Below are positions 1-64,000 of a stretch of 64,000 nt of DNA, piece by piece (position 1 is the stretch's first letter; each line of letters starts with the position of its first letter). The notes beneath the pieces were generated by a model. It saw nothing but the letters and a program-made list of their open reading frames with translations, had not been told where the DNA came from and ran no database searches. Location: NCBI GenBank assembly GCA_030522415.1, contig CM060106.1, positions 30,071,485 to 30,135,484 of the forward strand, in the 5' to 3' direction. A program made the position numbers and the translations under genes. This DNA comes from Channallabes apus. Taxonomy: Eukaryota; Chordata; Actinopteri; Siluriformes; Clariidae.

Positions 1-1923
1 TACAGTGTACAGTACTACGGTACAATATCAAAATCAGGTGTCAAACCTGTTTCAGTGTCTCATGCAATGTTTTACTCAAAACAGTAGCCTTGTGTGAGGA
101 GGCAACTCAGTGTGTTTCAGACTGGATGAGCGTGTTTGTTTCATGTCCAGGGTTTAATAGGTTAGGGTTATGGGTTAGGGTTAAGTTCCTGACCCATAAC
201 CCTGTGGGCCTTTTTTGGACAGTAAGTGGTGCAGATACCTTGATTTGTTAAAAAAAAAAAAAAAAAAAAAACACCGCAAAAGACGACGGATCGGTAGAAG
301 GTGAAGACCCATTGACAGCAGCGGGAATAAATTAATAATAAATAACACATCACTTGCTTTCTCGCTTTATTTTGTCTCTCAGTGTTTACTTTTCTCATCT
401 TTTACGTACAGTTGCAACTCTTCTTCCCTTTCCCTCTACCTCCATTTCAACACTTTCTTCTCCATCTTAATCTCACTGCTCCATGCACACAACTAATCTT
501 TTTGATCATTTACATATTTTGCTCAGTAATTTCATTTACTGCTGTATTTTATTTGCTTGCATTTATGTAAATAAGACAAATCTGTTCTTCATTTGTCAGC
601 CATATGATCATCTTATTTTTATGAACAGCCTTAAAATATATTCCAGTTTTCGGAAGCCAGAGCCGGGAGGATTGTAAACATCACAGTGACATCTGGGGTC
701 CCACTTTTCAAAGCTACGTGCAAGTCATTATGAAAGTATTCATGTGTGACACATTCCTCAGGCAGTGTTCATGACCGGCTGGTTATTGAATTTTTGAACT
801 GGGAAATATTTCAAAGTGAACTGAGGCTCTGAAGTGGATAGTTGACTTTACAAGAGTTAATCACGTGTTATGTGTTAAATCCTTTGAATAGGAGAGATTT
901 TAAGAGAGGCCATTCGTGTGGCCTATTCGAGTTTCTGGGTTTTATTATTAAAGCACTCCAGTTCTACACAGCAAAGTATGTAACATTGGAAATGTGCAAA
1001 GATACACAAGATCAAGTAACTCCAAGACGACAAGTATCACAATATCTACATTGATGCTGTGGCTTTGAAAAACTTTGTAATTTCTACACTGTGAAATTAA
1101 GTTGCAAACATGAATATCAAAAATTGCATTTGGAATAAATAATATAAGACTGTTATTTTCAGTTATTCACTCTAGTTAAATATGGGCTAATTAACTTAAA
1201 TAAAAAAAATTAATGTAATTAAAAATACAAATGTTACTACTTTCAGAAACACAATAAATATCTTACATAATATGCTTTCTTCTTCTCTTGCTCATACCTG
1301 CCTGAGTGTGCACGTGTCTGTGTGTATTTGTAAGTGTGTGCGCTTATGTGGGTGTGTGAATAAAATAGAGCACTGGAGTATGTAGAGAGACACACAAAAA
1401 AAAAAATAAGGATCCAGTATAGACATAACCATTGTTTCTCACTGACTCGCTGTATTGGAACGTCAATATCAATCTGTTCATCCTAACAGTAAAGAATCAG
1501 CTAAAACAAATCCTTGACAGCAGTTGATCTCTGCACCCGACATCTGCCAGACCCATTTTATTTCCTATTTTCTTATTTGGTCATTGCTTCCTGGACTTGT
1601 TGACACACTTTAATAAAATGTGTCCAAGGTTTGCTTGACTACCTTGTACCCTGTGGAATATTTTTAGAGGCTTTGCAATAATGTGTTCTCCTTGTCAGAT
1701 TATACTGTATGAGGTTCCTTTAATTATGGAGTTGCAATTAAAGCAAACGAGTATGTCCCGCTTATATCATCAGACAAAAATATCCAGGTTTGTGCAGAAA
1801 GTGGGCTCACTGAAATAAAGCCAGTTTGAGGTCAGAATGATCTTTAAGATGTGTCGACTTATTGCTGGTAAGCATTTGTCGTTATGTCTGAGAAATTATT
1901 AAATCTTATGACACTTGGGCCCA
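1..1923. other. Intergenic DNA, no gene recognised
   Basis: No coding signal or recognisable element is visible. It contains a short TTAGGG-like stretch near 163-187, a poly-A run at about 249-271, a TG-rich stretch near 1305-1360, and two TACAGTA/TACTGTA heptamers (8 and 1703). Open frames here are short, low-complexity and without family resemblance. Confidence 0.6.
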
Positions 1924-2053
1924 TGTAATATACTTGAATAACAGGAGACTGAGGTGTTCGTAAACTCTTTACTGATGAGATGCAGCATACAACGGAACAT
2001 ACAACTTCGGCCAGCACCTGCAGTAATCTAACCAAAACTGGTTATACTTAACA
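1924..2053 (-). repeat. Probable 3' LTR of a gypsy-type retroelement
   Basis: The 130-bp block starts TGTAATATAC and ends ACTTAACA on the plus strand, so it has TG...CA termini in either direction. Immediately outside its high-coordinate edge the minus strand carries a purine-rich run (GATGGGGAGGGG) placed like a polypurine tract. Just beyond lies the integrase C-terminus listed next, so the order integrase, PPT, LTR is that of a Ty3/gypsy 3' end. The LTR is short for the family, and the matching 5' LTR is absent. Confidence 0.55.
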
Positions 2054-2119
2054 TGCCCCTCCCCATCTTTACTCTCTTAAAGGGGCTTCATTTACTACGA
2101 CTTATATATAGCCAAAACA

Positions 2120-2530
2120 CTACACCCCTTTTCCCCAGTCCACAAAGTCTGAAAATCTTTTCGGGGCGTGAGGCTCTCTTACAGGGTACCTCCTAGAGCA
2201 AGGGGACTCTGACTCGTTCTCAGACCCAGCAATCTCCTCCCACGGATTGTCCATCTCCATTGCTGGCGGTTGTAACTCAGGGATTTCCATTCCAGAGGGT
2301 TCTGGTCGAGAGACAGTGTAACCTTCTGGCTCGGGCCTGGATGGGCTCCCTGAGGGCGTCATCCTGTCTAGCAGCTGATCAACGTGCCGTCTGTGCACTT
2401 GCCCATCACCGGTTCTGACCCTGTATGACAAGGGGCCTGTGACATCAGTAATGACCCCCAGCGTCCACTTATTAGAATCCTTGGTGTAACTTCTCATGTA
2501 CACCAAGTCATGTGGCACATTGGATGGTAT
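2120..2530 (-). pseudogene. pol (fragment): Ty3/gypsy Pol C-terminus (integrase tail), 5'-truncated
   Basis: A 132-codon open frame on the minus strand (2518 to 2120) reads like the end of a gypsy integrase. Near its N-terminus it has the GPLSYRV segment followed by RRHVDQLLDR, the small beta-barrel region that follows the integrase core, and then a proline- and glutamate-rich tail. The catalytic core, RNase H and reverse transcriptase are all missing, because homology stops abruptly near 2530. What remains is a truncated 3' end next to its LTR. There is no sign that it is expressed. Assignment to gypsy rather than another LTR clade rests on this tail alone. Confidence 0.7.
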
Positions 2531-3988: not shown

Positions 3989-4370
3989 GGGGTATTCCAG
4001 AAAGCAGGTTATGTGACATACCCGGATAAGTTTGAGGGTAAGTTAGTGGATAACCTCAACTTTCGGGTCCAAAAACGGAGGTAACTTTCTGGTTATGTAT
4101 GTAACCATAGCAACTTACTCTCTGAAGATAACTTGCTCGGTAGCAGGTTATGGTCCAGGGTAAGTTAGTTGCAGAAGGTTGTTGAGCATGGCGGCCCTTT
4201 TGATGAGGATCCCGTGGACGTGGAGGCACAAATTACAGTATACAAGGTTTTTTTCACCGGGAGAGAGTTATAAGACCGCGCATTGATGTTTTTTCATTTC
4301 CTAATGATTATTTGAAAGAGCGTTATTGGTTTTCAATGAAATCGTTAATTTACTTAACACATCTCTTGAA

Positions 4371-4424
4371 GAGAGATGTGTTACAGTATATTGCATATTG
4401 AGAGATGTGTTATATTGTCATATT
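4371..4424 (+). repeat. 24-bp tandem duplication, one copy carrying a 5-bp scar
   Basis: GAGAGATGTGTTA begins at 4371 and again at 4400. Copy 1 continues CAGTATATTGCATATT and copy 2 continues TATTGTCATATT. Removing CAGTA from copy 1 makes the two match except for one base. Copy 2 therefore shows the state before the insertion. Confidence 0.85.
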
Positions 4425-4681
4425 GCAAATGTCACAAACCGCGGGTCTGCGCTTGGAAAACATTCTGTGCATAGCACTTTTTTGTACAATGTGGGCAATG
4501 CAGAGCATGTGGGAAAGGCAACTGTACAGTATGTCTGGCACTTAAACACTTCTTACACACGTGTACAGTACCCTGGACATAAACCTCTGCGTGGTATTAA
4601 AGAGGAATTCCACAGAGTGGCAGGTTTGTCCTTTGTAGTAAAATCGATGATGCATATTTAATATGTAGTCATACTATTTAG

Positions 4682-6095: not shown

Positions 6096-6924
6096 TTCAG
6101 TGATCATGTAATCAAATATTACCTTTTTGCAGAACGTTTTTGTTTCATTTTCACTTGGCTTCTGGTTCCAGAAGGATTAATAAGAAACCATAAATTCCTA
6201 GTCAGTATACATTGGTATTTTAACCTAAAGAAATGAATGGCTGGAAAAGTAAATGCTTTCATTTAACAGCCAAAAGGATGCGGATGCGGTGTGTTTAATT
6301 ATTTTTGCATTCTAATAAAAGGGGAGGCGATGTCAAATTTGCAATTTAATACACTCACACATTTACTCTGTCTTTTATTTTTTGCCAAGTCAACTCTCTT
6401 TCTTTAGCCGATGCAGCCTTTTTTTTTCATTATTATTGGCTTGAATTCCTCATATGCGTGCATTAAAACCTCTGTGAAGTATGCCGTTCTCTTTTTTCAC
6501 TTTGATCTTCCATTTTGACTCGTGAAATCGTCGATCCATTGAAAATGTCTTTGTCTCACGCGCACTAACTCTGGGTAACCAGTAGAGGGTTGATTAAACT
6601 TAATCTTATCAGGTGTTTTGGAACCGACATGCTCGCGGGATGCGTTTTTGGGGTTAATCAACCCAGAGGTTAAGATTAACCAAATGGTAAGTTAACCAAG
6701 CTTTCTGGAACACCCCCCTGGAGTTTCTGTGTCTCATTTAGATCATTCTTTCCAAAACTTAATAAGGTTATGGCCGAGTTTGAAATGTAAACCAACCCTA
6801 ATCACTATTGATCAACACACATATTGTATACACATATACTGCTTACAACACATATACTGTATACAGTGGTATACAGTTTGCATTGTGTTCTTTTTCCTTT
6901 TGTAAATATTGTGTATATACAAAT

Positions 6925-7650
6925 TGTTTTGATCATTACTTCCACTAAAAAGTTTGGTCACACCATCTAATTTGAAGGTTTTTTTTCCTGATTTTTCATT
7001 TTTTTTTCTACATTGCAAAATATTCAAGGCATCCAAAAAATGCAATAATCTTCATTGAACAGTTGATATTGTGGCATGGGCGGATGTATGTGTCCAACCT
7101 GTTGGGGAAGGGTGTTTGGGTTAGTGGCTTCGGCCAGGTTGGGTGTGTTATGTGTGTGTGACCTGTTGAATGTGCTCCGGTTCATGCTAAGGCTGAATTG
7201 GATGAGGTTCTCGCGTGAATGTTCTGTTCATGCTATACAGTGCTGAGAATTAATAAAGTACTCCCAGCCATTGCATTGGGCAGCAATAAAGCACACTTGT
7301 CTCTCCAAGGTCCTTTCCAGCGGTAAAACGCTATAATATTGAGATGTGTCTGCTGCTTTGTAACACCTTCATAATGGCTCTAATCTGAGGTGTAATTGGT
7401 TATTTCTGAGGCTGGTAACTCTAAATGAGCTTCTCCTCTGCAGATGAGGTAAGTTTTGGTCTTGCTTTCAGGCAAAGGTCTTCATTAGAACCAGTTGCAT
7501 CATGGTGCTTGATGGTTTTTTCAAATGCACTTGACAATACTGTTCTTGCAAGAACTATTCCAGCACAACTGACCTTTATATCTTAAAATATCAACTGACT
7601 GTTGTTGTCCAAACTTGTGTCCTAATTTTTGACTGTTACTGTATATTTTG
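6925..7650 (-). mobile_element. Tc1-like relic (internally deleted)
   Basis: The left end reads AAAAAGTTTGGTCACACC and the right end CTAATTTTTGACTGTTACTG, the inward-facing 'AAAGTTTGG' termini of a common fish Tc1 family. Between them only the part of the transposase region around 7340-7600 remains, transcribed on the minus strand. The centre of the gene is deleted. A 264-bp repeat is inserted at 7072-7335. Confidence 0.65.
7072..7335 (+). repeat. Short dispersed repeat, copy 1 (solo LTR or SINE, unresolved)
   Basis: It interrupts the Tc1 relic between two ATATTG repeats (7066-7071 and 7336-7341). It shares long stretches, such as GTTTGGGTTAGTGGCTTCGG and CCCAGCCATTGCATTG, with 50954-51198. 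Two AATAAAG-like signals near its right end suggest an LTR, but I see no clear TG...CA ends. Confidence 0.6.
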
Positions 7651-10343
7651 CAGCACATCATTTGCTATGGCTTGGAAAACTGCTCAAGCATTGGTCAAGC
7701 CAAAAGACATGTCATTATACAGTAAGTGTTCAGAATGACTGGTCGGGTTGTTACAGGCGGTTTTCCAATTTGCCCAATTTGTAATCTGTTCTTGACTGTG
7801 ATCGCATTAAGCCCCAAGTAATCAGCACATGGGTAAAGTGATTTGGTCTTTTACAGCAAAAAAAGAAACAAACTCAGTATGCGTATTAGGAGGATTGAAT
7901 GATGCCTGCAGCCAAGGACTCCCTTATATACATCTCCATTGCCTCATGCACTGTCATCCTTGATACACTAGCTGTTCTTCCTTTTAACTTTGGAATAAAC
8001 ATGTATTTATAAGAAGTGCCATTTTGTTCTGGTCAGTGAAGACTTTTTAAGCACAGCAGATTTTTATTTTTTACTTTCTTTGATGGTTGTTTGACAACCA
8101 ACTTGTAATAGGACTATCAAAAATGTACTGGGTCATGTTTCTTTATGTTTACTGCATTTTTTTAAATTGTAGACCTTCAGTAAGGTCTAGACATTAATCT
8201 TCTACAGGGTTTCTACAAGGGTCATTAGACAGGTAATTTGTAAAAGGACTATAATAAAATGTTTAGTGCATTAGGTTCATTACAGCGAATGTGACTGCAA
8301 GGTCTGTTTGAATCAGAGATAAATGTAGATGCACTGTTAGAAATTTAAACAGGCCATACTGCAGGCAATGCAAAAACAATGATGTCATTTTTCTTTACAC
8401 ACTGTTTTATTCATTGCATCATAATTTAATGTCCCCATAGAACAGGATATAAATGTGAGAATAAAAAAGGCATAAGTGGCATTATGATGGATATCTGGAA
8501 GTATACAGATCTAGAAATTTAAATTCCAGTAAGAGGAATTAACTTAGCTATATCTAAAGTTATATTATAGCTAAAGGATATGTCAATTTTTTTTTTACTT
8601 GCCTGTCATAGAAATGCAGGTTGAGGTAGATCAGTGTGAACTACCACTGCTTTTAAATTGACTTTCCAAGTCCCACATGACATTTTCTTCACCTGAAATG
8701 AATATTTCAGATAGCTTTGAGTTTTTGCATTTATATAATGGAAAGCTTGCTTTGAAACGACAGATTTTTGTTCTTAATTTATTGTATTTTGCTACTTAGG
8801 GCATTTGTGGTTCAGTAGAAGGCTCATTTCTATTACCTGTATGTGGAAGGCAGGGTTTGCTAGCGTCCAGGTTACGGGGCATCATTAAAGGGAGGCCTGT
8901 GTCAGGAAGTGTGTCCGATCTAAAACCAGTGTCAAAATCAACATGTGGGGATCAGATGTTCCTCTGTGGTGACCCCTAATGGGAACAGCTGAAAGAACTT
9001 GCATCACTTGCATTTGACTACAGATGTCACCATTAACAACGCATGTTTCGAGAAAAGGGATTCCGCGACTTGCGGGAAAATGTGTTATTTCTCTTAGGCG
9101 CCCATTGACAGCAAGCGACGGAGCTCATAAACATGTCGAGCTCAAACTGTACATGAAAATACTATGTATTTATTCTTAATTTTCAGCTCTCTTTCAATGA
9201 TGATACTTCTTTAACTTCGCTTTCTCCATTCAGTATTATACCCTTGTGCAAAGTGAAAGTGAGTTGCGCGTGCGGCTTTTTGATCAAACAGCTGATAAAC
9301 GCGTGCGCAAATATGATTCTGTAATATTCCATTGTCATTCATACTGCTATTGTTTTAACGCCCTTTACTGAAGCATTCACTAGTTAGTAAGTAAGTAAGA
9401 AATAAAAGATATTTATAAATATAAAGATAATTTGTGTTTAATTAAATTCTTAACATTTTAATGGTTAGTGTTTGTTGCAGACATTCACACTATTTTTGGG
9501 GAAGAGCTTGGCTTGTTCAGGCTACTTTACACTGATCAGCAGTCGACGCCCCACCGTACCCAGCAGATCAAAGGGGCAGTTATCGGCTATGACACGTAGA
9601 CTTCTGAGTTTGGAGGCCAGGGTTGGTTGGTTGGAAGCACGTTGAAGGAGAAGATAACGTCACAAAAACACGCAAAAACTCTCCATGTGCACACACACAA
9701 TCGCTCAGTGCAGATAGACCGTGCAGTTCATTCATCGGCGTGTATATAACCCCGCGGCTCGCACTTTCACTTAACAAAAAGGCAGCGTTTTGATCAACAG
9801 GATGATAAGGTAAAAATGCAGACATAAACACCACCCCCCCCCCCCCCCCCAGGAAAACAACAAACACAAATATATAGACTACAGTACTTGCTGGCTTTTC
9901 CAACACGCTAGCGAGCTCCGATGTGAGCCGCTTTATTCAAGTCATAATTAGAGAATATATATAGAGAGAGATTAATAACATAGAGAAAGCATAATGCGAC
10001 TGAAACACATACTTCACAAACACATATTCACATAACACATACTGTATACACATAAAAACATAATATATTCAGTAAATTTGTGAATTGCACACAAAGTAAT
10101 TATGAAGTCTGATTTGATTGGTACCATTAGACATTTTATTTCTATTTGTTCTATGTTTTGCTGGCGAAATACATTTTAGGCAGAGACGTCTGCTCGGTCT
10201 TGTTAAATAGTTTTAAACCCCTCAATTCTGCCAATTCCCCCATCCGCGAAACCGGTTTGATAACTTCACACCTACATCAAAGGTGAGAAGAGGGATGATA
10301 ACTGAGCGCGCTGTCGCGTTGTACATATTGTACACACACACAC

Positions 10344-15990: not shown

Positions 15991-17171
15991 ATGGCGACAT
16001 CTGTACATCTGACACTGATAACAAACTTGACTATTTTATGTTGATTTAAAATGCTTCACAATGACAGGAGCAACGAAAGTTACATGATATGAAACTTTGT
16101 CCTGTGGTTTGAATAACATCATAAGAAACAGTCACTGAAATATTGTCAGTTTTCCAAATCTGCCAGGACATGAATCGAATGAAAATCCCATACAATTATA
16201 TCTGTGTTCAATTCCGGCGATCATATTCTCTCATGGTTTTATATGAGTCCACTGCTTCACTCAGGCGAGTACCGGGTCCATGTATTAACAAGCAGTGCTT
16301 CATCTGATATAATTCCTGCCAGTTAGTCCTGCAGTGTTGTCTTCATTTGTCTTCATTTGATTTGAAAGAATGCTACAGCTTCTGATAAAGCACCAATGTG
16401 ATCTGATAATGTCATAATTCAGAAGAGAATTATCATTATAGTCATCGCGTTCTTTGTTCACCAAACACGCACTTCAGTCCATCCATTAACCTACAATACA
16501 TCAGAAATATCTTCCTGGGTGAATTGGATTTATTTTTTAATACATGCATTTAATTGGTTCATTTATTTATTCCATGGGTTATGGAGAAAACCTATGCATG
16601 AAGAGCTTCATGCATAACCTCTCATTTTCCACTGTTAATTATATTTAAAATCTGTGAACCTACACCAGTTTTTTTCTTTCCCCAGATGAGTAGTAGGAAA
16701 ATAGACTGAATAAATCCGCAATTTCTCAGAACTTGTTTGTGGTCATTCTATTAGATTTATTTATCCTATTTTGCTCACATTTGTCAGGAAATAAACTAAA
16801 CGACTGCCACATTTCCAGCTTGTTAGGTATCTTTTTAGTAAATGGTGGAGCCGGAAAAAAGAGCACATGTTTGTAAATCAGGAAAGTATCATTTACAGCA
16901 GAACACACGCGCACACACAAACGTACGCGAACACACACGCACACACATACATACGGACACACACACGTACGTGCACACACAGTCTCTTCCAACACTTCCA
17001 ACACACAAATATTTTTACAGTAAGTAAAATTTTATATTTCGTTTGAAATCATGATAATGTGATGGACTGAAATCCAGAGTTTACGCCTACTTAGTGGCAC
17101 ACACACTCGCTCCATGACCGGCACTAGGACAGTAGTACGGTCACAACACAGGAAACATACAAGGAAACAAG
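15991..17171. other. Intergenic DNA, no gene recognised
   Basis: No element or gene is recognised. An impure (CA)n/(ACGT)-rich stretch lies at about 16900-16980 and one TACAGTA at 17016. Confidence 0.6.
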
Positions 17172-19639: not shown

Positions 19640-19915
19640 GTTTGTTTTTGCTTGGTAGAGAATCTTCTCCATGTGAGGTATACTGTAGGTGACCTGGTTG
19701 TCATGGTATTCCCATTTCACACTGCATTACCCATGATGATAAACAGTGTTTTATCCTGTTTATTTTGGTTTCTGTTGTATTCTGTTACCTGCTCTGTCCT
19801 GTCATTAGTTTGTTCCCTAGTTGTGTTCACCTGTTCTTAAGCTGGGTGTTCCTAGTTTGGCTCCCTTGCCCCATCCACGCGATTTCCTGGTTTGATCTTT
19901 GCCTATTCACCAAAT
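19640..19915 (+). repeat. Possible gypsy LTR fragment
   Basis: The pyrimidine-rich segment (CATTACCCATGATG, then TCTGTTACCTGCTCTGTCCT and GTTCACCTGTTCTTAAG) resembles the U3/R part of fish gypsy LTRs and lies just downstream of the gypsy Pol remnant on the same strand. Boundaries cannot be fixed. Confidence 0.4.
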
Positions 19916-20690: not shown

Positions 20691-21510
20691 GGTGGCAAAT
20701 GGGGGGGATCATAGTGTCATAATGAAATGCCTGATTGATGTATAATTATGGATTTACTTTCATCTTCAACTGGACCCCAACCTTGTATATGTAAAACAAT
20801 TCCTAGAATGCTCTAGGAAGTAGCACATGCAGAGTTTCTTCAATGCATATTACATTTCTAGGAGTTTCAAGGTTATTTGAGCTGGTTTGATCAAATACAC
20901 TAAGCTAATTAAAATACTTACAGTACATGTACAAAATAATATGGCAATCAAACGTACTGCATAGATTATTCTAGGAAAACATGATTGATGCCAGTAATCA
21001 AAGTGAGTCAAGGGTGTCAATGTATATTCATATAATTGAATATTCATATATATGAAGTTGATTGGGGTGTACTTTGTATATCATGGTTCTGTGTCTGACT
21101 TGATAGTTTGATGTCTAAATATACAGCATTAGTACGATGTGTGTATTAATACAGTTCTCAGGTCAGAATGAAGCAAACACTCACTGCATCCACAAAATGG
21201 ATGGCCATTTAATAATCACCTGAGGGAATCCACTTTGGCTAACAGTATTGTGCAAACCTTTTGTGGAAGTAATTACTTATCATTGATAAAAGAAAAAAGG
21301 CCAGAGATACAGTAAGGGTACAGAGGCATAATAGATTTCATGTAATTGGAAATGAAACAGCTCAACCAGATATCTTCATCCCAACATCCTGAGTAAGCAC
21401 ACTACTTTCAGTTGATGCTTATTGATTTATTTAAGCGTCCATTGTGAAAAATTACCTCGCTGCTAAATCAGATTTTCTCATTGTGCAAAGTGCTTAAATT
21501 TTTATTCATT

Positions 21511-23894: not shown

Positions 23895-24540
23895 TTGAGC
23901 TTTGATCATGGCATACTGTACATTTGTCAAAACTTGAATTGCATAAATACTGATGAACCACTCAGTGAAGTCTTTTCGAGCACATTCCAGAGACTTTTAA
24001 TAGAGTTATGGTCACAGGTTTTGGGCAATTTATGTGTGATTCCTCATGCTCCCAAAACCTTTCTATGCTTTCATAAATTGAATCTGATGGATTTTGGCTT
24101 TGCCCCATGCAATAATCTGGCTATTCAGTACATTCAGGTCTTTAGCTGACATAATTTTATCAGTCTAGACCTGACTAATTGAAGCGACCCCAGATCATAG
24201 CACTGCCTTCCAAGGATTGTACAGTGGGCTATTTGATGATGAATGCATCGCTTCATGTGCTGATGCACCCATATTACCCCAATAATGTTTATACTGTATG
24301 TACCCTTATAATGTGTTGAACTGTTCTTAACTCAGTTCCAATATCTTCCTCAATCTTCTTGGTGGTTTTGTTTGCTTGATGCAGACCAATATATCTCTTG
24401 CAACATAACACACAGCAACATCTTTTTCCATCTCCATGTGATGCGCCTTCTATTAGGGTTGTTTAAGAAATGAGAAGCTGTTAATTGTTGCCAGATGTTT
24501 TTTTTTTTGTCAGGTACTGTAGTGTATGTTAAAATGGGAA
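23895..24540 (-). mobile_element. Tc1-like relic (minus)
   Basis: The minus strand carries decayed Tc1 transposase sequence. The plus-strand text TCTTTAGCTGACATAATTTT, then GACCCCAGATCATAGCACTG and GTACAGTGGGC, corresponds to the reverse complement of the catalytic region of a fish Tc1 family. Three TACTGTA sites lie inside (23914, 24292, 24515). No open frame survives. Confidence 0.55.
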
Positions 24541-25204
24541 TGGGCAACTAAAAAAGAAAATAGTGAGTAAGGCTTGACGTTTAAATAATATGGTTGTTGC
24601 AGTGTTGTCTCGACTGTGTAGATGTCCAATACAATAACTAGTGGTTATTCTATTGTCTTGTTTCTTTGCTGCCCCCACACCATACAGTAACTTCCTTTCT
24701 AAGTACTAGCTGTAGTCATTCTCTATCCCTAATACCGATGCGACTCTTAAAAGTACTCACTCTGGCGTGGACCAAGTTTTCAGTTGTCTAACTATTCATA
24801 TACTGTAGGCTCAATTGAATGTCTCAGGCTTTTCATTTGCCATATTAATAAAATGTGGTTTATGGATTATACATTTTTTAATATAGCTTCCCCTACAAAG
24901 GGGAATGACTTGTAAGTGGTTACTAGAATTATTCACCAAGACATAAAGTATATTAAAGTGCTTACTTGAATATCTTCCTCCTCAGTCAGCTTGATTGCTC
25001 CTTTGTTCTTGAGAGTAATGCGGTCACAGGAAGAAGCTCTCTGTTGGATTTAATCCTGGCATAGTACTTAAATTAAGAGTAGACTTGATTTTTAAATTAC
25101 CTTACAATGAATGTGTTTAATTGAATTAGATAAGAGTTGTAATTTAAAAAAATTAATATCTGTGTGCAATGGCCATGATGTTTTTATTTTTTTATTTTTT
25201 TATA

Positions 25205-29018: not shown

Positions 29019-29030
29019 TACAGTACAGTA
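29019..29030. other. Double TACAGTA scar (TACAGTACAGTA)
   Basis: Two overlapping TACAGTA heptamers share a TA. The same 18-base string GCAACATACAGTACAGTA also occurs at about 53703-53720. Confidence 0.7.
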
Positions 29031-40665: not shown

Positions 40666-40965
40666 CAGGTCCTTCTCAAAAAATTTGCATATTGTGATAA
40701 AGTTAATTATTTTCTGTAATGTACTGATAAACATTAGACTTTCTTATATTTTAGATTCATTACACACAAACTGAAGTAGTTCAAGCCTTTTATTGTTTTA
40801 ATATTGATGATTGTGATATTGATGATTTTAATATTGAGGCTTGAACTACTTCAGTTTGTGTGTAATGAATCTAAAATATATGAAAGTCTAATGTTTATCA
40901 GTACATTACAGAAAATAATGAACTTTAGCACATTATTAGCATACAAATTTTTTGAGAAGGACCTG
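40666..40965. mobile_element. Fold-back Tc1/mariner MITE with CAG...CTG ends
   Basis: The 300-bp element is flanked by TA (40664-40665 and 40966-40967). Its ends are perfect inverted repeats starting CAGGTCCTTCTCAAAAAATT, and nearly the whole element folds back (for example CATTAGACTTTCTTATATTT against its complement at about 40880-40900) around a short AT-rich loop. It has no coding capacity, so it would depend on a transposase in trans. Its outer three bases, CAG and CTG, are exactly those needed to leave TACAGTA or TACTGTA on excision. Confidence 0.9.
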
Positions 40966-41219
40966 TACATAAGGTAGACACATACTGTAATTGTATACAT
41001 GTAACATACACAGGAACTAAACAGTTAGTTGTACAGTTTAATTACAGTATTTCAATTGTCATTACACTTTATATTTTTACATTTTTATTGCTTTTCTTTC
41101 TTCTCTCTGTCTTCCATCTATGGAATTTACAGTACACTGATGATCCATCTGACCACTGACTCTATCTGACCATTTTGATTCATACACATTCACATTCCAT
41201 ACAAACTTAAATAATTATT

Positions 41220-41300: not shown

Positions 41301-42815
41301 TGTCACGTTTACTGTCATATCTGCAACCCCAATATGTACTATTCGCTTGCATCAGCTTTTAAATGTACTTAAAAAAAAACACTGAGCATGTAAATAATTA
41401 TCTGCTGGTTTACCATAACTACTACTATTTATACATTTTCCTTTTGGTTCCAAAATATGAAATGAAGTTCTATGTTCTAATTCCTAATATTTGCTGTGGC
41501 ACGATAAATTTTAGTGTCTGCATCACAGCAATTAAATTCAGTACTAATGGACCGACTTAAAAATATTTGCTTTAATAAACAAAAAAAAGTCTATTGCCTC
41601 ATAACACAAATAAAGTGTCTGCGTAACCTTCTCACTCCTCCATGCTCCCTGGTTTCATTTCAAGGTCTCCCATTTTCGTCCCACCATCCAAAACATGCTG
41701 GAATTCTCTAGGGTTCAATGATTGTATTATACACATATACACAGCATTCGATCTAGCATCAACTTCTGCCTCATCTCACGCTTAGTATTTCTTAGGGTTT
41801 CCGGCACCGGGTCCATTGCACCTAGGATAAAGTGACTGCTGAAGATGAATGAATACTTGTTCTCTCATGGGATACACAGCAGAGACAGAGAAAACAGATG
41901 GTCGAGTCACTGGATGGTGTTAAGACGTTTTTTTCCAACAGTTTATCTTTACCTACTACCCTTTTTCTTGCTCATTAATCAGTGCAATGCACAGCGGTAC
42001 AACAGTGTAGACATAAAGGTCTAAGAGGGTTTCCATCATAATTATATAGCGTTAATTAGTTAGTGCCATAGACTTGATTCATTTAAATCTACTGTAGCAA
42101 CCAGGATCATCATAATTGCTCAGATTTAGTAAAATCATTCTTTACTCAAAGGTGGTTTGTTGAGAATAGTCTAGAGGCCTGCATCAGTAAGTACTATTAT
42201 CAATTTATTATATTGGTAATCCTGACAATCTGGGATGCTTGACTGCATGATTGCCCCATCATAATCTGTACCTGAGGGAACTGTAAACAAACTTATTGGA
42301 TATAATGATGCAAGCAAGACTACTGGTAAATCCCTTGGAAAAAAAACACACATATTTGGAGATGAATAATCAGTCACACGTTTTAATTACGGTGTGAGAC
42401 TACTAGATTAGTGCGTAGTCTGTAAAAGGCGCTGAATTACTGAATATGCAAGTGTACTGTATGATTAGTAGAATATCTGAAAGCATGACAAAGAGGCTCA
42501 GACCTCAGATAGAATCAGTGATTGCAGGTAAAGAACTATGAAAGAGGATTTTATACTACAGTAGCATTAGAATTGTTATTAATTCTAAATAATTTTTTTT
42601 ATGAATAGAAATGTTTTGTATAAACAAACAAATAAAATTAACCATGATAAAAATGACTTTTAAAAGAAAAGCCAAGCTATGCATTACTGTATGCCTCTTA
42701 TTAATAGTACACAAAAGGAAGAAAGAAATAAGGTTTCTTGTCACAAGAGCAATATTCACTCCTGGAAATCAAAGTATCATTTAAAATTATTTAGTAAAAT
42801 TTAAGCATACAAATA

Positions 42816-43285: not shown

Positions 43286-45074
43286 GATGGGACAATTTTG
43301 TGTCACAACAAAAGTTTAGTTTGAAAAGAGCACAGCAAAAAAAAATTCTTACTCAGAAAGTTGGAACAGCTCCAAGAGAAACTAGACCCTCATCGAGAGC
43401 ATCCTGACAAAAACCACACAAGTGTGCAGTATACTAACTGCCCAGCCATAGAGTGAATGATCTCAATTGTGTGGTGAAATATCAATGCTATAGCCAACCG
43501 AACTGAACTGCTGCTAGTTTTACAACATTAATAACATTAAATCTTATAGGCACAAACTGACAACCCAAGCACTGGTGCTCTTGCATTATTAAAAATTTCC
43601 TCATTAATATGAGACTGCTAGAGGACTTTGGGACGTTAAATAGAAACATTTGCATGTATGCTGACAAAAATGGTCCTTGGTGCACTTTTGCAAAAGCAGA
43701 GGATTTAATCAATTGTGCTGAAGACTCAAGTTAAAGGAGTAATATTTCTGTTTTATTAATTTCTCATATTGTTCTTATCACAGACTCATAATCCCTGCTA
43801 AGCCCATACTAATCAGGTTTTTCATAATAATACATCCATATATAAAGTAAGCGGCATGCACAGTGTGCACAATTTGAACAATCACATTCATATTAAAATG
43901 GTTAAAAGTTATTCGTATTGAATATGAATAGGGTTTATTGTGGCGTAGGTGCTAAGTAGGATTAATTAGGGTTTAATATGGGGCAGGTGTTTGTTTCCTT
44001 TTTCTGTTTCATTTGTCTAAAAAAAGCAGATGTATTCCAAGAACATGCTTTTGCATGTTCTAGTTTCAAATATTTTATTGATTCTCGTGGATTTTTTTTA
44101 TGATTCTGAAAGTTTACAATGGTCTGTTTTTCCACATACAGTAAGAAAAAAATGATAATAAAAAAAGGATGTTGTATCAGATTTATGTCTCATAGTGTAT
44201 AATATGTTTATATGTAATATGTAATATTCATAATCCAACTGTGGTTCATTGATTTTCTTTCTTTCTTTCGTTCGTTCGTTCTCCAGTTTGTCAGAGATCC
44301 CATCCTCGATAAAAACTATTCAACCACAACAATGTTCAATGGAAAACTAATATATGAAATAATAAAACATTAAGATAAGCCAATCTATTCTTGGGATAAT
44401 AAAGCAGACTTCTAAAGTGATGGAGTATCTTAATCAAAGGACATATGATGGCCATTTGCAATACTACAATTAAAAGAAGATCTGTTCTTCCACTTCCATC
44501 ACTAGACATTTGCAACAGCTGCCAAATAATGATCTATGGGTAAGTCAGCAAATTTTTGCATGGTTTATTACTGGGAGTGCATGTGTGTCCCTGTATAAAA
44601 TCTAAATCTAGTCTTAAGATAATAAAGCCATCTTCCAAAGTGATGGAGTAAAAATTAATTTATACAGTAGTTATGTGGAAATCAGATTTATAAAACTACA
44701 ACATACACAACATAAGGCCTTACACATCATTCTTATTTAAATTCCAATTAAATTAAAATTGAGAGCACATTGATAAAATCTCTCACACGTTATGGATGTG
44801 TAAATGACCAATATTCAACTTCTTTTGGTTGAAAGATGAATAAATAGAAAAAGAATTTGATGGAAGTGGGGATTAATGAAATAGATGTCAGGAGACATAG
44901 ACAGGTCTGTGGTTTGATGTCTGGCATTAGTAAGTCGAATTGATGGAGTGCATAGTGTGAAATATATTCCTAAAAAATGGTCTGATGTGTAAATGTATTT
45001 GAATTTGAAAAGCTGCTGTCCACTGGAAAAGTGTCACAAACTGACATGATTTACATCTGATATAATATATGTAC
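43286..45074. other. Intergenic DNA, no gene recognised
   Basis: No gene or element seen. Heptamers at 44137 and 44663. A palindromic ACATGCTTTTGCATGT hairpin near 44042-44057. Confidence 0.55.
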
Positions 45075-45700
45075 TGTCACGGTTTTGCCCATGACTGAGG
45101 CATACCCTAATTGCAGACGTATGGCTGGTGGCACATCTTGAGATGAGAGATAGTGAGAGTGCCAGTTCAAGAGAGATTAAAGGTAGATGGTGCATGACAT
45201 GGCATGAGTGTCACAGTCAGTTTGTGTGCTCTTTCGGACTTCCATAGTGAGGAGTGTTTTTTGACACTGCGAAGCTTGTGTCAGCTACAGAAGAGCTGCA
45301 ACCGTTGCCCTGGCACTTCTGTCTTCAGTTATGGCCAGCTCTTAAGATTCAGTCACTGTTAAGGCCGCTGCCTCGACTTCCAGCACTGTGATTGGCAACT
45401 TGCCCTTGAAGATGGACTTGCTGCTGTCAAACCTGAGATTATTGTCTCGTCTTTCAAGCCCACAGCTTCAACCTGTTGCTGCCATGGCTCACAGTTCCCG
45501 TGCTGTTACTGTATGCCTCCTGACCCGAACTTACTTACAACCTACACTTTTCTTTATCATATTTTTTATTTTCTGTTCCTAATTTGCCATCTTAATTTTA
45601 TTTCATTATTTAATAAACACATCTTATTTTTGTATATATAAAGACCTTGCTTCATGTCTGTGTGTCCAGTATGTGTTGTTCACAGAGTCGCACTCTTACA
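45075..45700 (+). repeat. Probable solo LTR (gypsy-like)
   Basis: It starts TGTCACGGTTTTGCCC and ends CACTCTTACA, so it has TGT...ACA ends. AATAAACACATCTTATT, a poly-A signal followed by a T-rich stretch, lies about 90 bp before the end on the plus strand. Flanks are GTAC on the left and GTAT on the right, a possible imperfect 4-bp duplication. No internal coding region is present. Confidence 0.6.
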
Positions 45701-46928
45701 GTATATAGATTTACAATTGTCAACATTTCACTGTCTAAACATATTAAATATTGATTTCAGGTTCATCTTCTATAAAACCTCTATTAGTTATCTTCTATAA
45801 ACTTTTATAGAGCTTGTGTATTAGGCAGCATCCACCCCAGGAAATGCATGCTGAAAGTAATAAGTGATTTTACCACACTAGACCACATCTGGTACTCCTT
45901 TTTTATTAGTCAGGTAACATTTGAATAATTAGGCAGAAACCAGAGATAACAGCCTGTCAGCCCAAATATTCTGCTTCACCTTCTTTTGGATTCATATAGG
46001 GTCTCAAGAAACCTGTAATTGCGACTGTCAACAATTATGTGGGCGCACCGGCCCATGACTTTATGTTTAATAAAATAGTTAGGTCCAGCCGAACGATTTA
46101 TTAATTTCTGATTGGACAAGGCAAGAGCATTCCATAAGCGAGTGGCACAACCCCATTAGCACTCACCTGGCATTGTACTGTATAAACTTCAACTGTTGAA
46201 TTAAAACACATCAACATTCAATGAATTAATTGTGAGCTAGTGGACTTACAGGCAGTGATTTTGAAATGTCACTTTGCACAACTGTTGGTTCAGCAAATTA
46301 ATTAAAGGGAGCGTACGACTTAATGTGAAACGCTGCGTTCACTAGAGTCAACAAATGAATGAGCAAAAACCCTCTCAATCAACATTTAGTTAAACCGAGT
46401 AAAGAATGTGTTTTTTTTTTGCCTGCCAACATATCACTCCAAACCCTGCATGAAGTATTTTGAGTGGAGCTTGAAAGAAATGCACAGACGTTAAAGCAAA
46501 GTCTTGTATTTTTTGTCAGTAGCCGAACTGTTGAATGAAAGCAATAATATGATACCCATGTTCATAAGGTTGTTAATGGATATCCTCACACCCAATCTCT
46601 AATATTATGTGAATATGAATGGCTGGCAAACATGAGATTCATTTGGAGCTTCTTGACCAAAAAATGTTTGCATGTTAAAAGGTAATGCAACAGGGGTTTG
46701 AGGGTCGGGTGTCACTTTCTCTTTTAAAGGCTCTTTCATGAGTCCATAAAGCAGTGGAACGTACTGTATAGTCTTCCTTGTCTATGAGGACCTGAGGGTT
46801 GCACCAGTAAAGCTCTTGCAGTCATGGTCTTGAAGACGTCCGGGCCTCGGCTATGTAGGCAGCTGTTCTCTGAGGACTTGTGATTGTAGTCGCTCAATAG
46901 TTCAGGACTGGAATTTCCTACAAGCTAC
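45701..46928. other. Intergenic DNA, no gene recognised
   Basis: No gene seen. TACTGTA sites at 46176 and 46762. The heptamer at 45697 spans the LTR edge and so may be chance. Confidence 0.55.
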
Positions 46929-47559: not shown

Positions 47560-50169
<2,610 letters not shown>

Positions 50170-53117: not shown

Positions 53118-56036
53118 TGTAGACATAAACTTAAATAAATGAAACTAATAATAATAAATAAATAGAAAGTTTTAATAAAGTTCAACTGGTTTAGTTCTAG
53201 ATCAGGTCTGATATAAGATGCTAGAGCTCTAGTCCCATGACGAACATAGCCCTGAGTTCATCTTCAACCACCTGTTCCCTGTGCTCATGCAATGGATAGG
53301 GGCAGCTGTGCACATCCATGCCCAGGGGAGTCTTTATGTGGGGCTCCGAATAGAGGTTTGGCTAATGAAGAGAGGATATTGTGATAGCTTAGAGCTGTGC
53401 CTATGAGATGGTAATGGGATAATGTGTGTGCAGCAGATGCATAATGGTCACCTTTTTAGTTTTTGCACAAATGCATTTGCTTTGCCATATGGTGCTGAGT
53501 TCATTGTTTTTGATGCCTTTTTATTTAGCGCTAATAATCCAAAAATTAAACGCAAGATATCTTGCTGTTATTTTGAATGCCACATGCTCTCTCCTTGTTT
53601 AATGCTCTTTTATAAAGTTTTTTTTAATTATTTCTTTCTTTATTTATTTTAAGTTGAGGGACTAAGGTTAACCTTATAGCTGCCTCCCAGAATACAGCAT
53701 AAGCAACATACAGTACAGTAAGCATATAAGATGAATAAATGAATGAAGCATACTATGCATCTAGAGCATGGAAAGCAGAGTTTATTACAATTGGATTAAA
53801 CGCATGAAGATATGTTAACATTAGTAACTGGTTTTGTAAATGTAAATAGAGCACAATAAACAATCAACCTTCAAAAAGTCAGCTTAAAGATGCATTCTTT
53901 CTTTGTTAATGACATTCTTTCATACAAGGAAGAAAAATCCTAGACATGATTAAAAATTTTTGACATGTTGTGCCAGTCTTTTAGAGATTATACAGTCTAA
54001 AGATTCTATTCACCATATTCTTAAAAAAAAAATAAAAATAAAAAACACGTGCCAGCTGCTGTACCTAGTAGCCTGTCATATTGCATAAACTTGTACCTCA
54101 AACTGACAGATATTTCTGTGCCACAATTTTTTCTTGCTGAGTAACGGTCTCTGTCATAGGCAACATATGCAATTACCCAGGGCAACTTGTCAGGAGTGGC
54201 ACTAGCACATTGAGTTCTACAGTACATAGATTGTGTGGATATTCTCCTTATTGTACCAGTACTGGGTGCCAGCTGCTGCCCTGTCCATTATTCTCACTCC
54301 AAAATACTCCCTTACCAATGAAAACAAACCAGTAATGCACTTTCTCTGCTTGGGGGTTTAGACCTGTCTAGTCTTGCAAGCCAGACCTTTAGTTATTACT
54401 AGCTAGTCTGGATGTTTTCAGCTCCCAATATGGAAAAAATACTGTCTAATATAGTCTGTCTGTTCAGGCCCTCAAGAGGGATAGATGACAGCATTCACAG
54501 TTGGAGTACTTTTGCAAAAATAGGTTTCCTGTTAGGCAAATAACTCTGTCTTTGTTGTGCAGTATTTAATTATTGGCCTTTGGTTATGAACTGGCATAAC
54601 ATGAAGTGTAAAAATACCTTTATAATAAAAAAATACCTTTATACACACAAAAAAATGCTCATGGTTTGGGCTTAATTTATTTAGTTTATTTAATAAACCC
54701 AAACATTTCAACCATCTTGATACAAGTTAAATTGCCGATGGTAAAACTTGGTGGTTAGTCTCTTCAACTGCCATGATCTTTCAGCCTCTTCTGCCGTTAC
54801 ACTAGAATTTCTTTTGGAGTTTGTATTTTGTTTGTATTAACCAAACTAACCAACTTTCTATGGGTGCAGGAGGGATTTACTGTTTCACACCATCTGCAAA
54901 ATTCAACAGGACACAATCAAAGCCTCCTGAGTAACCATTTAGAAAAGCTTGTCTCCTGTCGTACAACATCGCTTATTCAAAATCTTGATGAAGTCACAGC
55001 CATCAGTGGCAAGATGTCAAAGAAAGAATAATTGGGTGCTGTCTGGGTGGAAGGAATAGCATATTGTCCCTTCTCTCTCCTCTTAATCAGAGATGTAGCT
55101 AAACCGGTGTGTTTGTGAGATCATTTATGTGTAAAGGGGGCAATTAGTCCTTTGTTCCAAGCGTGTTGAGTTGTCCCTGGTTGGTAGTAGGTGAAAACTG
55201 GAAAATGTCCAAATTGAGTTAAAATAAGGTAATAAAAACAAAAAAAAATCCATTACCACCATCAGTGGCAACCAGTGTTAGGTGTAACGTGTTACATATT
55301 AACGTTAGAGTACTTGGATTACTTTTTCGATGTAACAAGGAATATAACATGTTAGGTCCGCCATTTACTGTAAGTACTCAGTTATTTAGTTATATTTTCA
55401 TAAACGTAATCCATTATGCAGACAATTTATGCAATCTGTGAGCCAGACAGCAGTTATTCCATTAGTGTGTGTGTCTGTGTGTGAAAGCAGTCCTACAACA
55501 GTAGTGAATTTTTAAATAGAGTCTTGACAAAAATGTCCCAAAGAGCAATTATTAATTTATTCATCTTCACTAAGTGCATTATGCATTCTCTCACATTCCA
55601 GAGACACTCCACACATTTTGCATAAAATACTTGAAAGCAATACTTTGAGAACTTTGAGTCAAAGTCTTTTCTGATATTAAAGTTACTTAAATATTGTGTG
55701 GTTGAGTCTCTGTGTTGCTAATCAGAGGATTGGGAATTCGAGCCCCACTACCACCATGTTGCCACTGTTGGGCTTTGGGCAATATCCTTAACCCTACACT
55801 CCCCACACTAACCCATGCATGCAGTGCCAATCACAATTCCAGTTAGAAAATTGGGGGGACATCAGGAACATCATCAGGTATAAAACCTGTGTCTTGCAGA
55901 TCAAATGACACAATGAAGTGACCCCTAAAATAAAAGGGGCAAATTTCTGAACATTGTATGAAATGTATTTATCTTCCTTATAGTAAAGCTTAAATATCTG
56001 CATCAGCTATTTAGGGACTTTATATAGGAAAGGTAG
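53118..56036. other. Intergenic DNA with minor repeats
   Basis: No gene recognised. A SINE-type fragment lies near 55695-55800 (GGGAATTCGAGCCCCACTAC; TTGCCACTGTTGGGCTTTGG). A double scar lies at 53709-53720 and single heptamers at 54218 and 55366. Confidence 0.55.
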
Positions 56037-56418: not shown

Positions 56419-56859
56419 ATATAGGAAAGGTTAGCCTTGTCATCACATTAGCCATATCACTGAACAGGGTCATGATAATAACAAAAAGTAATGTTAAATA
56501 ACATTGATATTATGGCTTCACTAAATCAATATTATATGATTTAAAATCAATAATATGATTTTTTCAGTTTTGGATGGGGTGGTTTTTTTAATGCCAATGT
56601 GTCAGTTATTCAGTCATTTTAGTGAAGTACCACATCTGGTAGGATGTAGGTATAAATGAAAACCTCTGTTAGAACATGTGAGATATTTTACAGACAGTAG
56701 CTACCTACAGTACCACTGAAAAATCTAAACACATTTTCCTTCAATACACCTGTATACACTGTTAAATGTTCTGTGCAAACTACTGTGTATGTATATCTTT
56801 GTATAGAACTTCTCCTGATCCCATATGCTGTGAATATATGCTCCTTTATCTTTTGTAAT

Positions 56860-57160
56860 AATTTCCTTTCCAATGTGCAATATCCAGTTGAGTATGTACA
56901 ATATGAACATACAATATTTTCACAGTTCCAAGGGCAATGTGCATCATTATAATTATTATTATTCCCCTGCATTTTGCACTGCCCACACTCAAATGTGCAA
57001 TATTTCTTAAACGCGCGATATCTTTATGTGCATTATTGTAACTCCTACCTTTGTATGCTTGCTGCACTGTCATTGACAGAGAATTGTGCAATTTCTAAGC
57101 TTTTGCCATATACTGTAACTACCCATAAAGGCATCTTTATCCTTTTATGGGTGAAAGTAT
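56860..57160 (+). repeat. Probable LINE 3'-UTR fragment
   Basis: Repeated GTGCAATAT-type motifs (for example AATGTGCAATATTTCTTAAA, and GTGCAATTTC) resemble the 3' UTR of LINE-C at 63120-63180. Edges are uncertain. Confidence 0.4.
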
Positions 57161-60100
57161 AAAAAAAAAAAAAATTAGGGGACAGTTTTTTTTTTCAGGA
57201 ATTATTACCACTAAACTATTCAGGGTAAAACAGCTGCATGCCAAAATCCATATTCTGTGATGCCTGTAAAAGTACCTTAACCATTAAAATAAAAACATTT
57301 GCTATACACAATGTCATGTGTTTCCAATGTTCTAATGTTCCTAATTAATTCTATTCCATACAAGTATTGACATATTGAAGCATTTTTCTTTTCAAGGATG
57401 CATGAAGCAGAGAAGAAGTGAAGAATATGAGGCATTGAAGGTTGTGGTACAGTAATACTGGTAAGACTTTAACTACTTTCACCCATGTAAAAGATCCACA
57501 TATACCTTTCTACTGTCTGACCACTGAATATGGAGCCCATTCTGGAGAAACTCTGGATGCCAGTCCATCATAGGGCACACACGCACTTGGGCAATTCAGA
57601 GTAGCCAATCCTCCTACGGGCATGGATACAGTAGGTCATGAACATCTTTAATTAGGCAATATAATGAGCTCAGGTTTGAACCAGTGACCCTCGGGCTGTG
57701 ATGCAGCAATGCTACACATACAAGCCCCATGCAAAGCCCAAATAAATAAAAATAAATTACAATAAATTAGCAGAATTAGAAAATAGATCAGGGTTGTAAG
57801 TGTATAGGCAAAAGTTGCAGACAGGGTGATAAATTAAAGGGAAAACCAGCAGTCCTACTGTAACATTTCTATTATAATAGAAGGCTTTGTCAGGATGACG
57901 ATGCCACTATTCACAGGGGACGAAAATGAACCAAATGAGTTGATGTGGATGAATGATGCAAATTATGTGCTATGACCTCCACAATCAGCAGATCACATCC
58001 CAATTAAACACCAGTGAGAGATTTTGGGCTGATGTGTTAGACACGGGGTAAGGGAGTATCTTTCTGGAAGAACACTGCAGCTCCAGGATCATTGAGGAAG
58101 TTCTGGTGGCTCAGTGTGGCATGGTATCTGCTCCTGTCAAGGGGTCGCCACAGTGGACCGTCCGATCCACACACAACCTGGCAACTTCTTGACCCAGTGG
58201 CTGGGTAGTATGGGGTATAGCAACCCACTGTATAATGTAAGTGGCGTGTTTGTTCATGGACTCTTTAATGAAAGATACTTTTTTCTTCCTTGTAAAACAG
58301 GTTCACTGTCACTTCATGTCATTAAATGTGGATGCACCAATTGGTAATTTTTCCTGCAATAAACAATAAAACTTTCCCTGATGTTTGTTAGCTTGTGCTG
58401 ACTTCGTTTGTAGTTTCCATTCACATACTGTATCAGCTCTCCATATTTATTATAGTGGTATTGTACAGCACTACAAATGTATTATAATAAGAAGCAAGCT
58501 GGAGTCAAGGGTTGATGTTGGTGCAATACACAGGGTGAACTTTTATGAGCTGCATCAGCAAATATGTCCATAATATGCACAAAATAAATAACACTGTGTG
58601 TGGCCTTTTAAACATAAAATCATAACATTTAGTCCTTTAGAAAAAAGCAAACTGCTCACAAGTATTAAGTGACTTACGGTGGATAAATAGTCAATATAAT
58701 TTTGGCCTTACATAGTTCCCTCTCTACATACAGTAAATAGCATTTTTCCATGAAATTTTGATTTAGTATGTATGCTAGATTAGTATGCCCGTTTCCAAGC
58801 ACTAAAGTCTAACATGCAGAGGGGAAAATAAATGGCATATACAACATATTAAATAACCACTTTTCATTCCCTTAATTCTAGACTTCTTAAACCTTTTAAT
58901 GAAACAAGACTTTATATCCACAATATGCCTTTGAATTATATAACCCGACATATTGCACATCAGGGTACTTAAAATGGTAAAAGTTGTCTGATTCATGTAG
59001 GTTAATTTTTTTTATTCACTTGGATAAAAATTAAGAAGAAGAAAAACAACCTTTAGAATTTGAATAACTAGAAATGTTCTTAGCAACTGCAAATACAGTA
59101 ACTGCTAGTAAAATTATACTTCAGTAATATGATAGAAGGACCGGCCTGTGGATTTTCAATATGAAATCTATAATGCGTGCCATTTCTACTGCAAATTTCG
59201 GATGAAAGGATTATAACTATTCCGCTAATGGAACTCTGTCAAATGTGCTTTTTCAGATATGACAATCAATTAGATAAATCTAATTAATCAATGAGTTGTA
59301 CAAATGTTTTTTCTTCTTCTTTCTAGGCTGGTTAAAATCCGCTTGCATAGTATAAACCCCAGCTGACAGTATTTTTTACCTTGAAATACCTCAAAATGCC
59401 CTTAGTCCTTATTGAAAAAAGACAAGAATAATGTTCAATATATTATTAATAATAATCATAACCAGTCTAAATGCATGCTGGAGTGTGAATGTGTCCATGA
59501 CCTCTTTTACAAGACTGATGCATGGACGTTTATTGTCAAAGTAAATGCATAGGTTCATGATGAGCATCTCATTTGTAATATTGAATAGGTCATGAGAGAA
59601 GCAATTATTCAAGCAGGGCTGAACAAGATAATGAGCTTTCTGAGAGAAGGAAGGTTCAGATGTAATTCCCACATTGGGATAAATGCTGGATGTAGCACAG
59701 TGGAAAATATTTCATTTCTATTGTGCATGTGTGAAAGGAGTAATTGCTTTACAACCGAGGACATGAACAAGGGAGTTTGTCGAGTCAACTTAGAGGGTTA
59801 GAAATTCCTTTATTTTTAGCAAAGAATCATTAAGAGAAAGCTTTGTTCTGCTCAGTTTAAATGTGTCTTTCTTATGATAGAAAAGTGAGCAAAAGACGAG
59901 TAAGAGGGGGATCGGATGTATAGAAAACCCCAAAATAAATTAGTTCTGTATGAAAGTGAAACATTGTGTTTGGTTTCACATCATCTCGATTCAATTCTTA
60001 TTAGAGATTTGGAGTTAGTTCTGCAGATTCTTTTCCAGGTCGTGATATAGCAACAGAACTGTTGACTCGATGGACATCACTCTGTGACAGGTTCCACTCC

Positions 60101-63103: not shown

Positions 63104-63406
63104 ACATCATTCAAACGGTCAATAAATATATGTGCAATATTGTGTACAACACCACTGTGCAATATACTGTATAATACCACAGACTTCAGATATTGATGTA
63201 ACTTATTTAAAAGTATCTCACATCGTACTCCATTTGATGTCAACCATTTAAAAAAAAAAATTTTTTTTTTTTTTTTTTTTTTGCGTCATGCTGTTTTTGT
63301 CTTGTCATTTGTATTTTTTGTTCTGGAAGCTCCGTCACTAAAACAAATTCCTTGTACGTGCAAGCGTACTTGGCAATAAAACTCTTTCTGATTCTGATTC
63401 TGATTC
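60567..63406 (+). mobile_element. LINE-C: 5'-truncated L2/CR1-type LINE
   Basis: The homology to LINE protein starts at CFTETWLN (about 60568), so the first part of the endonuclease and the 5' UTR are missing. After the stop at 63103 comes a 3' UTR with GTGCAATAT motifs, an A-run then T-run at about 63250-63282, a TGGCAATAAAACT signal and a (TTCTGA)n tail ending near 63406. Tc1-C resumes with CTTAAATGTTTCTGCTCATC. The open frame suggests a fairly recent insertion. Confidence 0.88.
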
Positions 63407-63721
63407 TTAAATGTTTCTGCTCATCAAAAACTGTTAACTATTAGTCAAAGATAACATAATTGAACACAAAATGCAGTTTTTAAATGAAGGTTTACGTTAT
63501 TAAGGGAGAAAAAAAACTCCAAATCTACATGGCCCTGTGTGAAAAAGTGATTGCCCCCTTGTTAAAAAATAATTTAACTGTGGTTTATCACACCTGAGTT
63601 CAATTTCTGTAGTCACCCCCAGGCCTGATTACTGCCAGACCTGTTTCAATCAAGAAATCACTTAAATAGGAGCTACCTGACACAGAGAAGTAGACCAAAA
63701 GCACCTCAAAAGCTAGACATC

Positions 63722-64000
63722 ATGCCAAGATCCAAAGAAATTCAGGAACAAATGAGAACAAAAGTAATTGAGATCTATCAGTCTGGTAAGGGTTATAAAG
63801 CCATTTCTAAAGCTTTGGGACTCCAGTGAACCACAGTGAGAGCCATTATCCACAAATGGCAAAAACATGGAACAGTGGTGAACCTTCCCAGGAGTGGCCG
63901 GCCGATCAAAATTACCCCAAGAGCGCAGAGACAACTCATCCGAGAGGCCACAAAAGACCCCAGGACAACAACTAAAGAACTGCAGGCCACACTTGCCTCA
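63722..64000 (+). pseudogene. Tc1-C transposase, N-terminal part with one nonsense codon
   Basis: From ATG 63722 it reads MPRSKEIQEQMRTKVIEIYQ, the start of a Tc1 paired-like DNA-binding domain. Codon 36 is TGA (63827-63829), where Tc1 relatives have an Arg codon just before TTVRAIIHKWQKHGTV. A CGA-to-TGA CpG transition explains it. After that the frame stays open to the window edge (second helix-turn-helix: GRPIKITPRAQRQLIREATK). The DDE catalytic domain lies beyond the window. Confidence 0.85.

Follow-up and report, generated by a model that had tools for sequence, protein, structure and literature searches.

The heptamers TACAGTA and TACTGTA in the window

We analysed 64,000 nucleotides of the fish Channallabes apus (GenBank assembly GCA_030522415.1, contig CM060106.1, positions 30,071,485 to 30,135,484 of the forward strand), and this whole stretch is called the window. 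It contains a Tc1-type transposase relic, long interspersed nuclear element (LINE) sequences, a short resident element with CAG...CTG ends, and 65 copies of the heptamer TACAGTA or its complement TACTGTA, most of which are probably footprints of departed Tc1-type transposons. An original prediction, made by reading the letters, had chosen this motif after going through the window and had given 65 positions for it. Our exact count over the 64 kb found all 65 of them correct, with none missed and none false; 34 were TACAGTA and 31 were TACTGTA, which gives a density of 1.02 heptamers per kb.

The 7-nt sites without special context are given below by position (exact count, strand (.)), and the sites with special context are listed where they are discussed.

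8..14; 1703..1709; 4234..4240; 4525..4531; 4564..4570; 7637..7643
7718..7724; 9880..9886; 17016..17022; 19681..19687; 20919..20925; 21308..21314
23914..23920; 24292..24298; 24515..24521; 24683..24689; 24801..24807; 25815..25821
26732..26738; 27185..27191; 28924..28930; 32838..32844; 33464..33470; 33566..33572
34583..34589; 35011..35017; 36661..36667; 37473..37479; 37607..37613; 39469..39475
40983..40989; 41043..41049; 41128..41134; 42090..42096; 42455..42461; 42557..42563
42685..42691; 44137..44143; 44663..44669; 45507..45513; 45697..45703; 46176..46182
46762..46768; 54218..54224; 55366..55372; 56706..56712; 57111..57117; 57448..57454
57627..57633; 57856..57862; 58426..58432; 58729..58735; 59094..59100

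Two transposon-derived features bear directly on these heptamers.

40664..40967 (.): resident element of 304 bp with its flanking TAs, ends TA-CAG...CTG-TA
30555..31663 (+): Tc1-type transposase relic, extent by tblastn

The resident element has perfect 24-nt terminal inverted repeats, TA included. With these ends it is of the donor type that would leave TACAGTA or TACTGTA behind.

Excess of the heptamers over chance

Base counts gave 60.4% AT, not the 63% assumed in the original prediction, which had expected about 14 heptamers. The clear excess that it reported held: the zero-order expectation was 12.6 for both heptamers together, and Markov models of orders 1, 2 and 3, for which the sites were masked during training, expected 8.7, 9.5 and 10.7. 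An order-5 model with unmasked training expected 41, a figure that is inflated because the model was fed by the heptamer sites themselves. The Poisson probability of at least 65 copies at a mean of 10.72 was 2.9e-29, and the excess is far beyond chance even after correction for all 8,192 heptamer classes. About 55 of the 65 heptamers are in excess of chance, so that about 10 may be chance occurrences.

The original prediction had also asked whether permuted heptamers are equally common. In the window they are not: TACAGTA/TACTGTA ranked first among the 420 classes of the same composition (mean 9.9, standard deviation 6.6), and the runner-up class, with 41 copies, overlaps the motif. Among heptamers with at least 15 copies, ATATATA and CACACAC alone had a higher z. 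We also predicted the number of each of the 32 TA-NNN-TA classes from both half-sites (quasi-independence; 142 and 148 half-sites for CAG/CTG), and found that CAG/CTG was the sole class far above expectation, with 65 copies against 10.3, or 6.3-fold, while the next class reached 2.5-fold (5 against 2.0 expected).

The regions that the original prediction had named as young contained 0 of the 65 sites in 14,435 bp, compared with 718 of 4,111 control heptamers (p 8.5e-6); the limits of the palindrome arms and of the LINE open reading frame among these regions were set in this analysis. Its statement that the heptamers are nearly absent from younger sequence is numerically right, for regions that were named after looking.

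Flanking sequences and target-site signature

The heptamer could belong to the end or the interior of a dispersed repeat, such as a family of miniature inverted-repeat transposable elements (MITEs), and the 65 sites would then be copies of one sequence. The window does hold Tc1-type sequences and a MITE-like element, and two double marks, described below, have 22 of 23 nt in common, mark included. However, when 20 + 20 nt of flank were compared for all pairs of sites, the best pair agreed at only 22 of 40 nt. The flanks are unrelated between sites, the double marks excepted, and the heptamers are therefore not copies of one repeat. Only 1 of the 65 sites lay within an alignment of the window with itself (E 1e-4), and the other copies in that alignment lack the heptamer. 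A repeat-family origin, which we consider extremely unlikely, was rejected on the unrelated flanks of the bulk of the sites.

Although unrelated in sequence as a whole, the flanks lean to AYA-TA-TRT (outward from TA: T, then A or G, then T), and this lean was not seen at other TA-NNN-TA sites, at half-sites or at TAs in general. The target signature had played no part in selecting the sites. As controls we used the 207 other TA-NNN-TA sites, with both ends read outward, so that 130 flanks were compared with 414. The mean AYATATRT score was 2.97 at the heptamer sites and 2.30 at the controls (p 9e-5), and a score of at least 4 was reached by 25 of 65 sites against 39 of 207. Position +2 was A or G in 86 of 130 flanks compared with 202 of 414 (p 8e-4), and position +3 was T in 60 of 130 compared with 147 of 414 (p 0.04). 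The footprints of C. elegans Tc1 differ in form from TACAGTA and TACTGTA. The target consensus of this element, CAYATATRTG (Korswagen et al. 1996, as quoted in PMC9635669), resembles the lean of the window flanks, but it describes insertion, whereas the marks in the window would record excision. For Sleeping Beauty the target consensus is given as ATATATAT (PMC3271037).

Sites with uninterrupted relatives

Comparison with uninterrupted relatives showed, at 4 of the 65 sites, that a single TA had grown by 5 bp, or by 6 nt (5 + 1) at one of them (36313).

31412..31418 (.): TACTGTA in the Tc1 transposase relic; reading-frame pieces contiguous in relatives
49330..49336 (.): mark in a LINE open reading frame relic on the minus strand; 5-nt excess over relatives
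36313..36319 (.): mark in the dispersed repeat 36046-36370; four other copies in the window
4382..4388 (.): mark present in only one copy of an adjacent tandem pair; junction-spanning exact match

The transposase relic 30555-31663 is homologous to Tc1 transposases with a DDE domain. Its best relative (P0001), at 92% identity over 86% of the query, carries PF01498 and PF13358. The relic is free of stops over 30828-31517, with its frame broken at 31412, between the WPAN and SPDLNP parts of the conserved transposase core. The relic pieces flanking this site are in different frames and 5 nt apart. Among the 120 relatives listed, 62 aligned to both pieces, and in 59 of these the pieces join directly without the loss of a residue. 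At 49330 the window was exactly 5 nt longer in 101 of the 113 relatives aligned on both sides, again among 120 listed.

The mark at 36313 was absent from all four other copies of its repeat, and the most similar of them (28264-28445, 86%) has TA at the mark position. A search of the window for empty sites with 30-nt flanks had excluded the close surroundings of each site and permitted only ungapped matches, and for this reason we also searched for exact matches spanning the junction of the joined flanks, using the 65 sites (position 8 without full flank) and the 207 controls. The joined flanks of 4382 gave an exact match of 18 nt to the neighbouring copy at 4400, which is uninterrupted. The next best site reached 15 nt over the whole window and the longest match among the controls was 14 nt; matches of 30-32 nt at 5 sites and 6 controls were trivial self-matches and were set aside.

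These sites also bear on the idea that the heptamer is a functional motif under selection, such as a protein-binding or splicing signal. TACAGTA and TACTGTA are near-palindromic, and the string TACWGTA occurs in a paper on C. elegans ribosomal protein genes (PMC3575287). Yet the sites are scattered across the 64 kb (variance/mean 1.12 in 1-kb bins and 1.52 in 4-kb bins), two of them lie in transposase and LINE relics, where they appear as a gain of 5 nt, and the flanks fit a transposon target consensus. The published mouse count would moreover imply about 7 heptamers per 64 kb (PMC4378557). We give selection on a functional motif next to no chance of explaining the excess.

Tandem copies and double marks

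Further sites lie in tandem copies, or are doubled or nearly so.

6855..6861 (.): heptamer in a tandem copy of 18 bp, ungapped, in which no empty site is seen
63165..63171 (.): heptamer in a tandem copy of 25 bp, ungapped, in which no empty site is seen
10040..10046 (.): heptamer at the edge of a gapped 15-bp tandem repeat, readable neither way
29019..29030 (+): double mark TACAGTACAGTA (sites 29019 and 29024)
53709..53720 (+): double mark TACAGTACAGTA (sites 53709 and 53714)
33247..33253 (.): heptamer followed by a near-copy, TACAGTACAGCA on the minus strand

The heptamers at 6855 and 63165 could be scars that were already present when the duplication occurred, or chance heptamers. The stretches 29008-29030 and 53698-53720, which contain the double marks, share 22 of 23 nt (CATAWGCAACATACAGTACAGTA), and similarity of the two was not found beyond a few bases on either side. 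The double marks suggest a common short origin, or a scar that was reused as a target. At 33242-33253 the minus strand reads TACAGTACAGCA, a near-double that resembles a decayed second copy of the mark.

Both TACAGTACAGTA doubles look like a 5-nt tandem repeat, as would be expected if slippage or tandem duplication had made CAGTA beside a TA. Exact doubles number only 2, however, and wherever a reference exists, which is at four sites, the inserted 5 nt, read by eye, repeat neither the preceding nor the following 5 nt. Local mutation of this kind also leaves the TA-NNN-TA classes to be accounted for, since no class other than CAG/CTG is strongly enriched. We consider it very unlikely.

Interpretation as excision footprints

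We conclude, with a probability of about 0.93, that the majority of the heptamers, about 55 of 65, are footprints left by the excision of Tc1-type cut-and-paste transposons with CAG...CTG ends, a reading that draws on the sequence of the window and its relatives. The same inference in the original prediction is supported by the target consensus, by the 5-nt offsets in two protein-coding relics, and by unscarred copies of one dispersed and one tandem repeat. An element would insert at a TA and duplicate it; later the transposase would cut with a 3-nt stagger and the element would leave. End joining would then close the break, with the 3-nt overhang kept between the two TA copies, so that TA-CAG-TA or TA-CTG-TA remains and the net gain is 5 bp. 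Such scars would accumulate, to about 1 per kb in older DNA, with few or none in recent insertions.

The cut and its repair follow what is described for Sleeping Beauty. The Sleeping Beauty transposase nicks 3 nt inside the element and produces 3-nt overhangs, and end joining leaves a footprint identical to the overhangs (PMC7827188). The repaired product is TACWGTA, with W being A or T (PMC10138897), and TACAGTA and TACTGTA are its two consensus footprints (PMC4378557). Like the marks in the window, this footprint has seven letters, a TA target and a 3-nt core from the element ends.

We infer that the 5-nt gain came from excision and not from another process inserting 5 nt, and the sites without a reference are probably excision scars too. 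The scars are presumably fixed in the species; fixed and polymorphic scars are indistinguishable here because one window of one sequence was analysed.

Several observations weigh against the excision reading. An uninterrupted relative was available at only 4 of the 65 sites; two more sites are in ungapped tandem copies, and the other 59 are without a usable reference. At 31412, 3 of the 62 relatives were non-contiguous, their upstream alignment stopping far before the site, and at 49330 another offset was found in 12 of the 113 relatives (10 at -1, 1 at 29 and 1 at 77). The copy at 36313 is 6 nt longer than its relatives instead of 5, by 5 nt and one nearby T, and three of these four relatives have no TA at the position. 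The tandem partners of 6855 and 63165 align without a gap and differ by substitutions. In the empty-site search elsewhere in the window with 30-nt ungapped flanks, there was no excess over controls (best score 22 of 30 among the 64 sites tested, 23 of 30 among the 207 controls).

The remaining points concern the signature, the age of the marks and their independence. Position +1 of the target motif was not significant (47 of 130 flanks compared with 127 of 414, p 0.29). Decayed forms, counted as single-letter neighbours of the heptamers, were only weakly in excess (238 observed, 200.5 expected, ratio 1.19), a level equalled by 3.6% of 419 control classes. The young regions were named post hoc, so the absence of sites from them is support and not proof. 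The two double marks, with their 22 shared nucleotides of 23, may not be independent.

Comparison with known systems and significance

The mouse genome measures 2.7 Gb. More than 300,000 locations in it carry TACAGTA or TACTGTA (PMC4378557). From this published count and that genome size, the mouse density is about 0.11 per kb, compared with 1.02 per kb in the window. The footprint of Sleeping Beauty has been described from introduced transposons, whereas the marks in the window would be a native accumulation at about 1 per kb. In zebrafish, Tc1/mariner elements make up 5.41% of the genome, and ZB, like other fish Tc1 elements, is a fish Tc1/mariner transposon with a target preference like that of Sleeping Beauty and footprints of 0-3 bp (PMC7913693). 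The ZB footprints were described in donor plasmids, and that description holds no scar count for a native genome (PMC7913693). Single footprints are already known; neither a genome-wide count of native scars nor a comparable density in native DNA was found described in the open-access literature searched.

Surviving transposon copies give the number of elements that remained but not of those that passed through, and departed jumping genes can leave traces in ordinary DNA that are open to counting. If scars are this dense and recognisable, a heptamer count would serve as a genome-wide tally of past excisions. With such a tally, species that have CAG-ended Tc1 elements could be set against species that lack them, and the age of scars could be estimated from their decay and from their occurrence in relatives. 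They would also point to a class of mutation, the 5-bp insertion at TA, with a high frequency in some fish and a low one in mouse.

We lean slightly towards a broader view, in which scars make up a main part of the old non-coding DNA of this lineage, at about 1 per kb, or several hundred thousand per gigabase when extrapolated from this one window. They may then outnumber the surviving elements, and past excisions could be counted from a single assembly. Old scars would be reusable as targets, since each of them adds a TA in a favoured context; the double marks suggest such reuse. Excision would be a steady, lineage-specific source of frameshifting insertions of 5 bp.

Other transposon-derived and non-coding sequence

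By tblastn, five Tc1 transposase-like stretches were found at three places, around 30345-31843 and in the two fragments below.

33026..33175 (-): Tc1 transposase-like fragment, by tblastn
63719..63997 (+): Tc1 transposase-like fragment at the window end, by tblastn

A palindrome occupies 29505-32683, with arms of about 1 kb that are 92-100% complementary in five ungapped blocks and with the Tc1 transposase relic in its centre. Named relatives of the transposase and LINE sequences include those of the catfishes Silurus meridionalis (94% over 39% of the query) and Hemibagrus guttatus (86%), and also those of Scleropages formosus (87%) and carps. The LINE frame 60350-63103 is free of stops over 917 codons, has no heptamer site, and is 86-87% identical to Hemibagrus and Scleropages LINE proteins over the part searched. 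In viral_contigs and genome_contigs, a search for other fish DNA gave no confirmed relative (2 and 23 unconfirmed pattern matches, respectively).

Six-frame Pfam scans of five 3-kb regions with 32 of the 65 sites gave no match over a site. The single match below the cut-off, to DDE_Tnp_4 at 4797-4895 (21.1 bits, cut-off 24.8), is a possible relic of another DNA transposon. At 52087-52158 on the minus strand, Rfam and ARAGORN predicted a transfer RNA (tRNA) sequence, which is a tRNA-Glu (CTC) gene or a tRNA-derived repeat.

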